From Opitutus sp. (GTDB taxonomy: Bacteria; Verrucomicrobiota; Verrucomicrobiia; Opitutales; Opitutaceae): a DNA stretch of 64,000 nucleotides. The position numbers were made by a program, and so were the translations under genes. Position 1 is the stretch's first letter. Each line of letters opens with the position of its first letter. The notes beneath the pieces were generated by a model. That model was not told the origin of the DNA and did no database searches. It worked only from the letters and a program-made list of their open reading frames with translations. Below, in pieces: positions 8,142 through 46,322 of the stretch. The stretch covers positions 62,001-126,000 of the forward strand of contig JANPZY010000004.1 in the NCBI GenBank assembly GCA_024707325.1, in the 5' to 3' direction.

Positions 8142-8237
8142 TGTCATTCTGAGCGAAGCGAAGAATCCACTTGGAGATTGTCCGCGGTGACACACAGCGC
8201 AGCGCGAACTGGATTCTTCGCTTTGCTCAGAATGACA
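8142..8237. repeat. Imperfect 28-nt inverted repeat (REP/MITE-like palindrome)
   Basis: Two 28-nt arms (8142-8169 and 8210-8237) are reverse complements with one mismatch and are separated by 40 nt. The core is CATTCTGAGCGAAGCGAAG. To my knowledge this type of core is a widespread intergenic palindrome in many unrelated bacteria. It has no coding capacity and could fold into a long hairpin. It sits directly before the 22-nt tandem array. Confidence 0.8.
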
Positions 8238-8241
8238 AACC

Positions 8242-8461
8242 ATGTCGCGACAAGGTGTGGACGTCGTCGCGACCAAGTGCGTCCACGGTCGGGCGGAGGT
8301 GCGAACCAAGTCGCGAGCAGGTCCGGCTCGAGTCGAGCGAAGGTGCGCACACGCCGACGACGAGGTGCGGAGTGGCTTGAACGAAGGTGCGCACACGGTC
8401 GCGACGCGGTGCGGACCGGGACGAGCCCCGTTGCGGATCGTGTGGTGATCGCGTGCGGCTC
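8242..8461 (+). repeat. 22-nt degenerate tandem repeat, array 1 (about 10 units)
   Basis: Ten consecutive units of exactly 22 nt fit one consensus: GRGTCGSGMC followed by AAGGTGCGSACC. Unit starts are 8242, 8264, 8286, 8308, 8330, 8352, 8374, 8396, 8418 and 8440. The last two are the most diverged. No indels break the period. Short ORFs through it are artefacts of a GC-rich repeat with few stops. It fills most of the space between clpC and the transglutaminase-like gene. Confidence 0.88.
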
Positions 8462-8512
8462 GACGCGGAACTCTGGCATCGCTCGCCGGAAAAAATTTCT
8501 TAGGCAGAACGC

Positions 8513-15292: not shown

Positions 15293-15424
15293 GGGTCGCG
15301 CCTGTGTCCGCACCGAGTCGGGCTCAAGTGCGCACACGGTCGAGCCAAGGTGTGAACCAGGTCGAGCCGAGGTGCGGACCAGGTCGGGACAAAGTGCGGC
15401 TCAGGTTGCGACACTGCGCGGCGC
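15293..15424 (+). repeat. 22-nt degenerate tandem repeat, array 2 (5-6 units)
   Basis: Five clear units start at 15293, 15315, 15337, 15359 and 15381. They match the array 1 consensus (GRGTCGSGMC then AAGGTGCGSACC) in the same orientation. A sixth, decayed unit (15403-15424) appears to have a small deletion. It occupies most of the 182-nt gap between the SDR gene and the next small gene. Confidence 0.87.
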
Positions 15425-15466
15425 GATTCACGGCTCGCGAGGAACATTTTCGGCATTCGCTGCACG

Positions 15467-30358: not shown

Positions 30359-31926
30359 TCAAAAGCCGAGAGGACGCAGCGAGGAGAGGATCGTTTGCGC
30401 GAGAGGATCGTTTGCGAAATCGCTCCAAGGACGGTTGGAAGAGATGCGCACGAAAAGTTGATCGCCCTCGCGGCTGAAGCCGTGGTTCCACGCGAGTTTT
30501 AGCAGCGCGCCCGGCGAGCGGGGATCGAGATGCGCGAGCAGTCGGCCGTCGTAGAAATGCCAGAACCAGACGTATTGCGGGAAATGTTGATTGCGGAACA
30601 ACCGGGCTTCCGCCGCAGGCAGCGGACCGCCGGGCGTCGCAAGCACTTCGCGGGTGACGGGCTGTGACTCCAGCACCCAACCGCTGCCCGGCCAGCAAGC
30701 GTCGGGCGTGTGAGTCGAGACGGAGCTCACGGAGGCCTGTCCTGCGCGCCAATAGGCGAGATAGACTGTGACCTGATGGATGCCCGTCGGCGTATGTTTC
30801 AGATAAGTGCGCTGTAGCAGCGTGTCGGTCTGCAGCGTGGAGCGAAATTGGTAGATCGAAGCGTCGGTGGTCACGCTCCAACCCGGTGCGCTGGTCGGGA
30901 GAACTCGCTCGAGATCGGGAACGACGGAGTTGTTCCGCGGGGACGGCGCCGTCTTGAAGTGAAAGAGCAGTGCAACCGCGACCGCCACGGCCAAACCGTT
31001 CGCGAGAAATCGGCTCGCAGTGGTGGACCTCGCCGTGCTTCCGCGAGCGTGCGGTGTTGAGTCTTCACCGTCCGGTTTTTCGATCAACCGCGCCAAACCA
31101 AACAGGACCGCAGCCGTGAGACCGAGCACGGCAAATCCCGTCCAGTCGTGCCAAGGTCCCGTGATATCGACGTCGGCGTTCGCGAGCAATGTGAGCAGGA
31201 GCGAACGAGCAAAGTTCATCGCGAGTGCCAGAATCGGCGCCGCTAGCAAAATCACCGCGCGTGCCCAACTGCGACGCACGAGCGTAGCAGAAAAAAGAAC
31301 CCGACGAACACGCACGAGATCAGGGAGCGCACACCGCTGCAGGCGTCTTCGACCCCCACGACAGCATGCGCGAGATTGATGACGTTGCCGTCACGCGTGG
31401 CGGCGATGCCGAGAAGGTGCAGCGCACGCACGACGTTTTCGGAAACCGCCAGCTGCAGCCCGAGCGTCAAACGCGTGTAGGTGCCCGGCGGCATCGGGGC
31501 CGTTAACAACCAAAGCGCGACGGCCACCAGCGAGCTCCAATTGAACGGCACAAGGCGCACCTCGCGCGCAGATGCGGTCGCGAGCGCCGCGAGCAAAAAG
31601 CTCACGAGTGCACAGCTGAGCACAAACACCACCATCGTGTGCGACCAGCCGACGGCGGCCGCGAACAATCCGCCGAAACCGAGTAACACCAATCCCGCGA
31701 GCAGTGCGGCGGCACAGACGCACGTGGCGATATTCGGACGGAGAAAACGCTGCGTGCCGTGGCGCACGCTTTCCGCGATCAGCAACGCGAAAACAAGCGG
31801 GGTGAAGAAGCCATGCGACAGATCCGGATTCGAGACCCAGTGTGGCCACAGCAGCGCGATCTGCACGGTCAGTAACACCGCTATTGCGGCACCGGCCGTA
31901 TACCACGAGAGCGGGAGCGATTTCAT
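30359..31926 (-). CDS. Exosortase fused to EpsI-type domain (one net frameshift)
   Basis: An integral-membrane transpeptidase-like enzyme that processes PEP-CTERM proteins. Start MKSLPLSWYTAG, then about eight helices. The catalytic Cys is in GVEDACSGVRSL; the Arg is in MNFARSLLL and the His in WHDWTGF, both in the following frame. The break is at a T6 run (31291-31296 on the + strand as A6); adding one T gives GFFFSATLVRRSW, a good exosortase sequence, and a 522-residue protein. After the last helix comes an EpsI-like periplasmic domain (about residues 330-520). The start overlaps the upstream gene's stop (ATGA). The fusion replaces the usual separate EpsI gene. Confidence 0.85.
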
Positions 31927-42208: not shown

Positions 42209-43866
42209 CCGATCGCGTGTCGTCCGCGCGCGTCCGAGAACGCTCCCTGATTTCGTGGGCGTTGCCGGCGGTGGTTGTTCTCGCGGCGGTGCTGCAGATT
42301 GGCGGCGCGGCGCGGCAGGGCTTGTGGCCCGACGAAATCTTTTCCCTCGCGATGGCGACGGGACACAGTCTCGAACATCCAGCTGCTGCGGCTCAACCGG
42401 AGTTCGGCGATTATGTTGAGCGCGAGGGCCCGGCGACCGCGCGTCACTACCGGCAATATCTCGCCCACGGCGATTCTTCCGCGGGTATCGGTCAAGTGGT
42501 CCGCGCGGTGTTTCTGTCGGATACGAGCCCGCCGCTTTATTACGTCGGGCTCTACGGATGGACGCGTGTCTTCGGCACGAGCGATTGGGCGCTGCGAGGT
42601 TTCTCGATCGTATGCTCGCTCGCGGCGCTGCCGTTTCTGGTCGCGATCGCGCGACGCATTTCTCCCTCTGACAATGCGCTGCTGCCGGCGGTCCTTTTCG
42701 CGTGTGCACCGCTGGCCGTCTATTACTCGGGCGAGGGCCGCATGTATGGGCTACTCTGGCTGCTCGTCTGCGCGCATGGTTGGACGACCTTGCGCGTGCA
42801 TGAAAGCGGAGCGCCGCGCAGTTCGCTCGCGTGGCTGCTTACGTCGGCGGCAGGCATGCTTACGCACTACTTCTTCGTTTTCCCATGGGCTGCGAGCGTA
42901 GCGTTTCTCTTTCTGCAACCGGGCGCGGATCGACGCTGGTTGCTCGGTCTGCGGTTGGTGGTCGTCGCTACGCTTCTGCTTCCGTGGTTCTGGCATGTGC
43001 CAGAGAGTCTGCGTCAATGGCGCGTCACCGGCAGCTGGCTCGAGTGGGCGCCGCCCGGTTACCAACGTCTCGTCGCGCTGCGCGATCTGGTGATGCAGTT
43101 CTTTACCGGACGATCGTCGATGCTGTGGGCCTCGGATCGCACCGCGGAAAAACTCGCGCTGCTCGCCTGCACGGCGGTGGCGATCGCCGCGCTTTGGCGC
43201 GTGAGACTGCGTGTTTTCTCCGGCCCGCGTTTGTTCGTGTGGCTCTGGTTCGTGGCGGCATGTGCGGGACCGGTGGTGTTCGATCTTTGGCGCGGCACCT
43301 ACACGCACACGTATTCGCGTTATGCGGCGACGGCGCTGCCGGCAGTTTGCCTGCTCGCGGGCGGTGCTGCGGCTGCGCTGGGCCGGATTCCGCGCGCGGT
43401 GTGGCTGGTGCTGCTGTTGATCTCCTGGAGCCCGAGTCTGGCGAACATCTACCGCAATCGCGCGCGCAGCGGTTCTCCGGTTCGTGAAGCGGCGCAACTC
43501 GCCAGCCGACTCGCAGGCCCAGACGAACTGCTGGTCGTGCACTCCATTCCGTCGGGCGTGCTCGGCATCGCGCGCTACGCGGATCCGTCGACGCCCATTG
43601 TGGCGTGGACGGGCCAGCTTGGTCAGCGGCAGATGCCGACGAGTATCGAGCAACTGGCCGCCGGACGGGATCGGATCGTGTTCGTGCGATTGCACGATGT
43701 GGGTGAACCCGCGCCACAGGAAGAGTGGTTGCGGATGACGCATGCGATCGCATTGGAGAAGCGGATCGGCTCGATCAACGTCATCGAGTTTCGGTCGCTG
43801 CAACTGGCCGCGGTAACGTCCGGCGCCGGGGAGGGAGGCTCCGATGCGAACATCAGTTCTCGTTAA
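42181..43866 (+). CDS. GT39-like membrane glycosyltransferase
   Basis: A 561-residue polytopic protein (about 10 helices). The first periplasmic loop has GLWPDEIFSLAMATG, whose Asp-Glu pair matches the catalytic motif of PMT/ArnT-like GT-C enzymes, and SDTSPPLYYVGLYGW. It probably moves a polyprenyl-linked sugar to an acceptor on the periplasmic side. ATG 42181 is preferred; an earlier frame start (42136) overlaps its neighbour by 73 nt. Overlap with the upstream gene is 28 nt, with the downstream one 23 nt. Confidence 0.88.
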   Translation: MQTAFAPVLTDRVSSARVRERSLISWALPAVVVLAAVLQIGGAARQGLWPDEIFSLAMATGHSLEHPAAAAQPEFGDYVEREGPATARHYRQYLAHGDSSAGIGQVVRAVFLSDTSPPLYYVGLYGWTRVFGTSDWALRGFSIVCSLAALPFLVAIARRISPSDNALLPAVLFACAPLAVYYSGEGRMYGLLWLLVCAHGWTTLRVHESGAPRSSLAWLLTSAAGMLTHYFFVFPWAASVAFLFLQPGADRRWLLGLRLVVVATLLLPWFWHVPESLRQWRVTGSWLEWAPPGYQRLVALRDLVMQFFTGRSSMLWASDRTAEKLALLACTAVAIAALWRVRLRVFSGPRLFVWLWFVAACAGPVVFDLWRGTYTHTYSRYAATALPAVCLLAGGAAAALGRIPRAVWLVLLLISWSPSLANIYRNRARSGSPVREAAQLASRLAGPDELLVVHSIPSGVLGIARYADPSTPIVAWTGQLGQRQMPTSIEQLAAGRDRIVFVRLHDVGEPAPQEEWLRMTHAIALEKRIGSINVIEFRSLQLAAVTSGAGEGGSDANISSR

Positions 43867-44764
43867 CAATTTCAACAACGCGCGCTTCCTCCGCACGTGC
43901 ATCGATTCGGTGCTCGGGCAGACGAGGACGCCGGACGAGATTATCGTCTACGACGACGGCAGCACGGACGATAGTATCCGGATTCTGGAGACATACGGTG
44001 AGGCGATCCGCGTGATCCGCGGCGAGCGGCAGGCCGGTCTGCCCTGGAACAATCAGGCGAAAGCGATCGAGCACGCGTTTCGCGCGTGCAGTGGCGACAT
44101 CGTGTTTCTGCTCGATTCAGACGACGCGTTCGCGTCGGGAAAGATCGCGGCATATCTGCCTGTGTTCGCAGCCGACGAATCGGTCGTGATGGTGCAGTCG
44201 CCCCTGTGGAAAATCGACGACGACGGCGTCTACACGGGCATCGAATACGACGTGCGCCGCCACGCCTCGGACTACCTGCGGCACATCGCCGAGACGCACG
44301 AGGTGAACATCTACTATCCGACGAGCTCGCTCGCGTTTCGCCGGAGCTATCTGCAACAGCGTTTGCCGCTGGAGGTGGGCGACGGCCTCGCGTTGTGGCC
44401 CGATGCCCGCCTCAGCCTGATCGCGCCGCACTTCGGGAAGATCGTGACGCTCGATCAGCCTTTCACGTGGTGGCGGCGTCACGCGGCGTCACACACGGTC
44501 GTGCGGAAAACGAGCGTTTACGAGCAGGTCTCGATGAACCGCACGTTCTATAACGCGTTTTGCTGCGCGCGCGGATTGCCGCAAGTGAGCACGTGGCGCA
44601 GTCGCGAGCATCGGCGTCGTTGGTTAAGGCACATCAGTCCGGAATGGCTGGTGCGCGTTTACCACTACCAACGCTGGTGGCGAGGGTATCACCTCGGGCA
44701 TCCGGTTATCGCCACACCGCAACCAGCCCCGGCACGCGACGAGTCGCGCGTGAGTGCGGCGTGA
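43844..44764 (+). CDS. Family 2 glycosyltransferase
   Basis: A 306-residue soluble GT-A enzyme: TSVLVNNFNNARFLRTCID, YDDGSTDDS and the LLDSDDAF metal-binding motif at about 90. It is the last gene in the operon and has a clear purine-rich Shine-Dalgarno site (GGGAGGGAGG) before its ATG. Its last eight codons (ending DESRVSAA) lie inside the first unit of a 22-nt repeat array, so the array has reached the coding end. Confidence 0.92.
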   Translation: MRTSVLVNNFNNARFLRTCIDSVLGQTRTPDEIIVYDDGSTDDSIRILETYGEAIRVIRGERQAGLPWNNQAKAIEHAFRACSGDIVFLLDSDDAFASGKIAAYLPVFAADESVVMVQSPLWKIDDDGVYTGIEYDVRRHASDYLRHIAETHEVNIYYPTSSLAFRRSYLQQRLPLEVGDGLALWPDARLSLIAPHFGKIVTLDQPFTWWRRHAASHTVVRKTSVYEQVSMNRTFYNAFCCARGLPQVSTWRSREHRRRWLRHISPEWLVRVYHYQRWWRGYHLGHPVIATPQPAPARDESRVSAA

Positions 44765-44894
44765 GTCGGGACTGAGTGCGGACCGACTCGGGACAATGTG
44801 CGCACCGGGTCGGGCCAAGGTGCGGACACGGTCGACGCAAGGTCCGGACCGAGTCGCGACAAGGTGCGGCTCGAGTCGAGCCGAAGTGCGCGCT
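44741..44894 (+). repeat. 22-nt degenerate tandem repeat, array between convergent genes (7 units)
   Basis: Seven exact 22-nt units start at 44741, 44763, 44785, 44807, 44829, 44851 and 44873, all on the consensus of the other arrays. The first unit covers the end of the GT2 gene (stop at 44762-44764), and the last ends on the first base of the opposing gene's stop codon (44894-44896). The array fills the whole space between the two stop codons. Confidence 0.9.
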
Positions 44895-46322
44895 CAGTTG
44901 AACGGGGCGGCGGTGTCGCGTGCGTAGTTGGCGCCGCGGCCGGTAAGCTCGCGCCAGGTGGTGACGTGATAGCGCACGATATCCTCGGACGTGAGCGCGT
45001 TTTCGCGCCGGGTGCCGGGAGCGAGCGGATCGACGCGGTGATCGTAGTGAAACGAGCCGCCGAGGCTGATGTAGTTGGCGACGATCGAACCGCTGATGTG
45101 GCCGTTGCCGTTGACGTTCACGTTGTAGTTCGGGCCGTAGAACGCGAAGGTGGAGTTGCCGGCGCCGTTGACGGCGAGATTCTGGCCGGCTGCGCCGTTG
45201 GCGATGATGACGAGGTTGTTGGCCTTGCCCGTCTTGTTGTTGAATGCGGGCGTGTTGCCGTTGCCGTTGGCGTTGATGTTGCCGCTGACGTAAAGCCGGA
45301 GTGAGGCGTTGCCGGAGTCTTCGACCTGGATGCCATCGCCGTTGAGGGAGAGCTGTCCGTTCACGACGAGCACGACCGGGCCGACGATCTTGAAGGCGGC
45401 GTTGCCGCTGAGATTCACGTTCTGGCCGGTGGTGTAGTAGTAAGTCGGCGTCGTGGCACCGGGGGAACCGAGGGTGGTGACCCCGTTCGGGATGTTTTGC
45501 GGGAGCGCCTGTCCCGCGGTGGCGCCGCTGTTGGTGGGCGAGGCGGGTGCGGCCGGCAGGTTGATCGAGACGTTGGTGGTGATGAGATTTTGGTCGAAGC
45601 GCGTGCCGGCTGACGTCTCGCCGTTGGTGAGGCTGCCCTGCGTGACGGAGACGGCGCTTTTCGAGCCGCCGCCGACGGCAGTCTGTCCGAAAATGTTGGA
45701 GTTCTGGATCTGGATGTTGCCGCTGACGGACGCGACGAGGATCTTGTCGCCGCGGTTTGTATTCAGATTCCAAGCGACCCACGTCGGAATCGAACGAGTC
45801 CACGTAGGCGGAGTTGTTCATCACGATGTTGTTTTTCGAAACGAGCCCCATGCCGACACCGCCGCCGTCGTCGGACGCGGAAATGCCTGCGCCGCTCTCG
45901 GTCGAGCGCGTGATCTCGACTTTGACCTGTCGCTTGACCTTACCCGCGATCGGATGATCGACGATGCCTTCGGCAATCACGACCGGATGTTCGCCGGTGG
46001 GATCGTCGATGCGGATTTTGATGGTGCCGGTCGCACCGCCGCCGAGCTGGATCGGCGTGCCGTCGGAGCGGTGTTCGATCGTCCGCGAAATGGCATCGAT
46101 GCCGGCTGAACTCCAGCTGTCGCTCGTGGCGTTGTTGAGTGCGAGCAAGGCTTCGTCGATGCCAGCTTCGGCGAGATGGAGCGCGCGGTTCATGTTGAGC
46201 GAGCTGGTGCTGAGCCGCGTTTCCAGCATGACCGTGCGCAGATAAGCGGCGGCCGCGCTGCAGACGATGATCGCGAGGATCAACGTGAAGATCAGGGCGG
46301 AGCCTCTTTGCGAACGGAGCAT
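44894..46322 (-). CDS. PilX-like minor pilin/adhesin (one net frameshift)
   Basis: About 475 residues after correction. The N-terminus has a PilX-type leader helix (MLRSQRGSALIFTLILAIIVCSAAAAYL, split here from its LRTVMLETRL continuation), followed by MNRALHLAEAGIDEALLALN, typical of PilX_N. The body is Gly/Asn/Ser-rich with beta-strand repeats (SGNIQIQNSNIFG, SGNINANGNGN). The frame is lost near 45785 after SFDSDVG; the next frame starts NLNTNRGDKILVAS. One net base removed restores it. It lies last in a three-gene minor-pilin unit and overlaps the upstream stop by ATGA. Confidence 0.8.

Follow-up and report, generated by a model that had tools for sequence, protein, structure and literature searches.

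Bacterial supercoiling domains are about 10 kb in size, and their boundaries are usually thought to be diffuse or stochastic. The ends of phage Mu and Tn7 are arrays of ~22-bp sites, the MuA and TnsB sites both being of about this length. In this respect they are like the 22-bp arrays of an Opitutus genome described here. A second likeness is an exclusion zone near 5 kb, as in Mu target immunity (PMC7350765); this is a likeness of pattern and not of mechanism. Unlike Mu and Tn7, the 22-bp arrays have no defined ends and gave no target-duplication signal, and no transposase or viral relatives were found for them.

The REP/BIME elements of the GTAG and CGTC families also form hundreds of intergenic copies, lie in convergent or unidirectional gaps near stop codons and are partly palindromic (PMC3733652). 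In convergent gaps, REPs keep to within 20 bp of either gene's 3′ end and frequently supply stop codons, and CGTC REPs have no RAYT partner (PMC3733652). The location at gene ends near stops is shared by the 22-bp arrays. However, a REP/BIME is a stem-loop of 20–40 bp, with alternating orientation in BIMEs, whereas the arrays consist of units in one direction at a fixed 22-bp phase and are spaced along the chromosome. Neither a GTAG nor a CGTC tag is present in the consensus of 750 units, and the flanks have no conserved end. The array family is one of dispersed intergenic repeats, set apart from REP/BIME by tag, unit structure, phasing and spacing.

The E. coli gyrase motif spans 130 bp, with a flank GC phasing of 10.75 bp that is explained by wrapping, and a non-periodic centre of ~36 bp (PMC6379681, in the excerpt used). 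The arrays resemble this motif and the BIME-2 gyrase sites in length (median 154 bp), in GC phasing (11 bp) and in their association with transcription-unit ends. According to the same excerpt, the attraction of E. coli gyrase downstream of transcribed units seems not to be hard-wired by the motif (PMC6379681). The gyrase motif is degenerate and has a non-periodic centre with a cleavage motif; the arrays are periodic throughout with a conserved word grammar. STAR elements, a Staphylococcus family, are likewise interspersed intergenic direct repeats whose numbers depend strongly on the species. The abstract on them describes neither helical phasing nor chromosome-wide spacing (PMC3532100).

The array between two convergent genes

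We analyzed a stretch of 64,000 nucleotides, called the window here. The features at the locus are as follows.

43844..44764, + strand: glycosyltransferase gene, family 2 (open reading frame; Pfam Glycos_transf_2, E=3.3e-24)
44743..44896, + strand: 22-bp array of seven units, confirmed in the sequence
44743-44764, 44765-44786, 44787-44808, 44809-44830, + strand: array units 1–4
44831-44852, 44853-44874, 44875-44896, + strand: array units 5–7
44894..46322, − strand: pilin-like gene in two frames (open reading frame; DUF7305, E=6e-17, C-terminal frame)

The stop codon of the glycosyltransferase gene (TGA, 44762-44764) and its last codons lie within unit 1, and the minus-strand stop of the pilin-like gene (44894-44896) forms the final bases of unit 7. 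Because these stops close unit 1 and unit 7, the 129-bp stop-to-stop gap is entirely array. Tandem Repeats Finder detects the array with a score of 111 and a period of 22. The initial annotation had placed an array filling the convergent gap at 44741-44894, two bases off register. The array is real, and its first unit overlaps the last glycosyltransferase codons and its last unit ends at the opposing stop, as had been proposed. Between 44600 and 45050 no terminator-like or promoter-like site was found, nor a stem-loop followed by a T-run as in an intrinsic terminator, in agreement with the earlier remark that a T-run terminator is lacking.

For the three best homologues of the glycosyltransferase (two from relatives, one from this genome) the alignment stops at residues 274–278 of 306, so the array-encoded tail is not conserved. 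Outside its own genome the best homologues are 46–52% identical. The pilin-like gene (46322-44894, minus strand) shifts frame at ~45750-45790, and its C-terminal part matches DUF7305. Either the gene is a pseudogene or the assembly contains an error here.

Uptake sequences consist of one short motif each and are much denser than the 22-bp arrays, and seven phased copies are not needed for such a role. Type IV pilin-like genes do adjoin the window array, and a link between known uptake sequences and the terminators at gene ends has been described (PMC1852404). Taken together, it is highly improbable that the arrays are DNA uptake or self-recognition sequences.

A dispersed family in one genome

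Three further arrays of the same 22-bp family lie in the window.

8244..8463, + strand: array of 10 units, between codirectional genes
15295..15426, + strand: array of 6 units, 10 bp past a stop codon
63973..64000, − strand: start of a 7-unit array that overruns the window end (full span G000:C1:125973-126126)

We found 115 arrays in 1,464,000 bases sampled from three contigs (36% of the genome), which scales to about 320 arrays in the 4.04-Mb genome. This strict set replaced a run at a looser cut-off, which gave 75 arrays, two of them one-unit fragments. At the threshold used, the array finder returned 0 arrays on the reversed sequence of two contiguous blocks (G000:C1:62001-526000 and G000:C3:1000001-1400000). 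With up to 2 mismatches, the unit pattern had 448+462 matches in its own genome, against 2+1 for the reversed pattern. The family is therefore not due to chance. With up to 1 mismatch there were 229+238 matches. A search of the same genome with the surrounding 451 bases gave at least 41 matches (40 scored of 389 candidates).

Among 251 other genomes of the family Opitutaceae, none had more than 2 matches to the unit pattern at up to 1 mismatch. The same was true of every other genome among 387 drawn from the phylum, some of which also belong to the family set. The genome of a congener had no unit matches. Phages and plasmids gave no unit match and viral contigs no exact match. In 390 kb from five family members, a small sample with few convergent gaps, Tandem Repeats Finder and autocorrelation gave nothing at 22 bp. 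A literature search brought up no description of the 22-bp family, although one may still exist in print.

The Y1 transposase domain (PF01797) has one weak match in the genome; 10 of 11 relatives have 3–13 matches and one has none. With this sole weak Y1 match, a link to RAYT seems doubtful.

Another dispersed repeat, marked by GTCATTCTGAGC and AGCGAAGAATCC, occurs at 38 places between genes in the 864 kb of the two contiguous blocks. Of these, 16 are no more than 300 bp from a 22-bp array, and one copy is at ~8200-8240 of the window. At 30384-30416 of the window, 17 bp are tandemly duplicated without a mismatch (1.9 copies, 100%); this duplication is unrelated to the 22-bp family.

Unit grammar and helical phase

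The consensus from 750 units is GTCGCGCCAAGGTGCGGACCGG. Each unit is made of two quasi-palindromic 8-mers, GTCGnGnC and GTnCGnnC, which are 11 bp apart and separated by 3-bp linkers. The 22-base step equals two turns of the DNA helix, and the strongest harmonic in the GC profile of the arrays is at 11 bp. Phase is strictly kept: of 411 unit hits (>11 bits), 389 fall on phase 0, 19 are shifted by ±1 and 3 lie elsewhere. Array lengths are exact multiples of 22 in 109 of 115 cases. They range from 3 to 14 units, with a median of 7 (154 bp) and a mean of 7.1 ± 2.1, and 73 of the 115 arrays have 6–8 units.

Units deviate from the consensus at 28% of positions. C15 and G16 are fixed at 97–98%, and neighbouring positions vary mainly by transversion; within the 8-mers, 1958 of 2580 deviations are transversions and 622 are transitions. 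Coupling between positions is strong inside the words (5–7, 17–18 and 20–22) with little between words. To us this variation suggests a degenerate grammar of recognition that is held under constraint; a reshuffling of old alleles could also account for it.

Unit identity is 0.614 within arrays, 0.610 between arrays and 0.635 for adjacent units. As identity within an array equals that between arrays, unequal crossing-over is not homogenising the units. Arrays share 112 24-mers, against 55 in unit shuffles, and a unit-order model gains 160 bits, whereas eight shuffles gave −3 to 95. The multi-unit order shared by some arrays therefore indicates copying, beyond selection alone. By the same 24-mer sharing and order model, the case for a fixed ancestral unit order is weak, and this idea was set aside.

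Position at gene ends

Genes were called with a home-made hexamer caller, so the gap classes given here carry its error: the 115 arrays comprise 41 in convergent gaps, 56 in codirectional gaps, 9 in divergent gaps, 8 inside called genes and 1 at an edge, and the sampled gaps of at least 60 bp comprise 140 convergent, 437 codirectional and 181 divergent. Of the 41 convergent arrays, 22 approach a stop codon to 8 bp or less. Position within the gap is non-uniform for both convergent arrays (KS P=3e-5, 34 arrays) and codirectional arrays (P=1e-4, 53 arrays). Array length rises modestly with spare room (Spearman 0.31, P=0.002).

The initial annotation had suggested that the repeat extends until it meets coding sequence. 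The hugging of stops and the relation of length to room speak weakly for this, whereas most arrays leave bases unused on one side. The exact double fit of the window array is uncommon, since only 7 of 41 convergent arrays come as near as 25 bp to a stop on both sides. It is the tight end of a general gene-end habit, one known for another repeat class. A striking single intergenic "exact fit" is thus best read against the whole family.

Arrays in codirectional gaps lie in sense orientation in 31 cases and in antisense in 25. Array strand agrees with the local GC skew in 42 of 69 cases (P=0.09), and on this ground a replication-linked strand bias was dropped. The GC skew changes from minus to plus at ~1.11 Mb of G000:C3 and from plus to minus at ~150 kb of G000:C1; these switches are perhaps the replication origin and terminus.

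RNA folding and transcription ends

Compared with dinucleotide shuffles, the two strands of the window array fold with z of −2.83 and −2.33, and the mean z of 63 arrays is −2.16. When permuted units were the reference the z was −0.18, with random units it was +0.10, and with column-shuffled units it was −0.17 for one strand and −0.16 for the other (102 arrays). As all three kinds of rearranged array fold as well, nothing beyond the consensus is selected for folding. The unit-permutation, pool and column shuffles thus gave no sign of a selected RNA arrangement.

At 82 array-adjacent gene ends, a terminator-like site stands before the array in 14 and just beyond it in 7. Convergent ends have a terminator-like site within 150 bases in 3 of 44 cases with an array, compared to 39 of 212 without. 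Counted by gap, such sites occur in 23% of 22 convergent gaps with an array and 44% of 62 without, and in 47% of 36 codirectional gaps with an array and 27% of 206 without; the reversed-sequence control for this count gave 16 of 84. The smaller number of terminator-like sites at array-bearing convergent ends makes it possible that arrays replace terminators at some of these sites. A general terminator role is unlikely.

A bidirectional transcription barrier, the other role first suggested for the window array, was not borne out. Nearly half of the arrays (56/115) are in codirectional gaps, sense and antisense arrays are similar in number, the 14 gene ends above already have an ordinary terminator-like hairpin ahead of the array, and folding is no better than that of unit-permuted or column-shuffled arrays.

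The same data bear on REP/BIME-like transcribed elements, in which GC-rich quasi-palindromic RNA would protect 3′ ends or aid convergent termination. The folding of both strands relative to dinucleotide shuffles and the poverty of terminator-like sites at array-bearing convergent ends agree with such a role. So do the preference of REPs for convergent and unidirectional gaps, their proximity to gene ends (<20 bp) and their supply of stop codons, as given in the excerpt (PMC3733652). However, the shuffles remove the folding excess, a terminator-like site precedes the array at those 14 gene ends, and an RNA element would not predict a fixed 22-bp phase or a multi-kb spacing. We consider this explanation distinctly unlikely.

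Arrays keep their distance from one another

The two contiguous blocks hold 37 arrays in 464 kb and 32 arrays in 400 kb. Of the 67 distances between neighbouring arrays, just 4 fall short of 5 kb. Simulations that scattered the arrays at random over gaps of the same class predicted 11.4 and 9.7 such distances in the 464-kb and 400-kb blocks, and the depletion is significant in each (P=0.0003 and 0 of 4000 simulations, respectively). The coefficients of variation of spacing are 0.55 and 0.64, whereas random placement gave 0.93 and 0.92 on average (P=0.0003 and 0.010). A third sample of 30 separate 20-kb stretches had 2 spacings below 5 kb, whereas 12.0 were expected (none of 3000 simulations gave so few). 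In the two contiguous blocks the result is stable at score cut-offs from 30 to 90. Two weak 3-unit arrays (L009 and L030) lie 2–3 kb from others; they appear at the looser cut-off only and are absent from the strict set.

Neighbours closer than 5 kb are as sparse in opposite orientation (1 of 27) as in the same orientation (3 of 40), and the median spacings are 9682 bp and 9672 bp, respectively. The equal depletion of opposite pairs argues against deletion between direct repeats, and recombinational loss of nearby direct repeats was rejected as the cause of the spacing. Phasing and spacing together are the surprising part of this family.

Random placement does not yield this spacing, and this counts against ordinary selfish or drifting tandem repeats that are tolerated in gene-end gaps. 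Confinement to one species, the permissiveness of gene-end gaps (the most permissive DNA) and the slight rise of length with room would suit such repeats. However, homogenisation within arrays is absent, lengths peak at 6–8 units, the phase is kept, and the words vary mostly by transversion. Drift is accordingly a very unlikely explanation.

The main rival to the reading that we prefer derives the arrays from insertions of a mobile element (extinct or non-autonomous) with a transposase that would have bound the 22-bp sites; no host function is needed. On this view the spacing would be what target immunity left behind as a fossil, and insertion bias together with purging would account for the placement at gene ends. 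The 5-kb depletion does resemble the cis-immunity of Mu, which is strong to ~5 kb and symmetric according to the cited excerpt (PMC7350765). Multi-unit words held in common show copying of whole segments, and distribution in a single species fits a recent burst. However, conserved termini are absent, and target duplications are not in excess (among 111 arrays, 18 share a 6-mer, compared to 15 ± 3.3 when shuffled). The searches of phages, plasmids and viral contigs gave no relative at the levels stated above, the units lack the similarity of recent copies, and the word grammar and phase lock would need explaining in dead copies. We regard this rival as rather unlikely.

Discussion

The arrays form a phase-locked family with a preference for gene ends and a mutual spacing, and they are absent from relatives. 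We infer, tentatively and with a probability of about 0.42, that they are double-stranded, helically phased protein-docking stations at gene ends, which serve topology or domain organisation. The window array would then be one of ~320 lineage-private dispersed DNA elements of this type. Its 8-mers, 11 bp apart, would present contact sites once per helical turn on one face of the DNA, and a plentiful protein able to wrap DNA or to polymerise would occupy each array stretch. By length, GC phasing and position, DNA gyrase would be the most attractive candidate binder, and a private nucleoid protein is the alternative candidate. Stations behind genes would meet the positive supercoils driven there by transcription without disturbing any promoter, and they would be kept several kb apart. 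The independence of array orientation from the genes and the spacing rule for both types of pair are as expected of a double-stranded element. Against docking stations, other Opitutaceae live without the array family, and insertion of an element could likewise yield the position and spacing.

The docking reading can be taken further. One species may have acquired ~320 hard-wired phased stations at transcription-unit ends, ~12 kb apart and with a 5-kb exclusion, at which gyrase or a private nucleoid protein would set supercoiling domains. This would amount to a sequence-encoded chromosome lattice, a proposal that we think unlikely in this full form. At the level of the family, helix-phased arrays at gene ends and kilobases apart would be either written domain or topoisomerase stations or a genome-wide fossil of target immunity.
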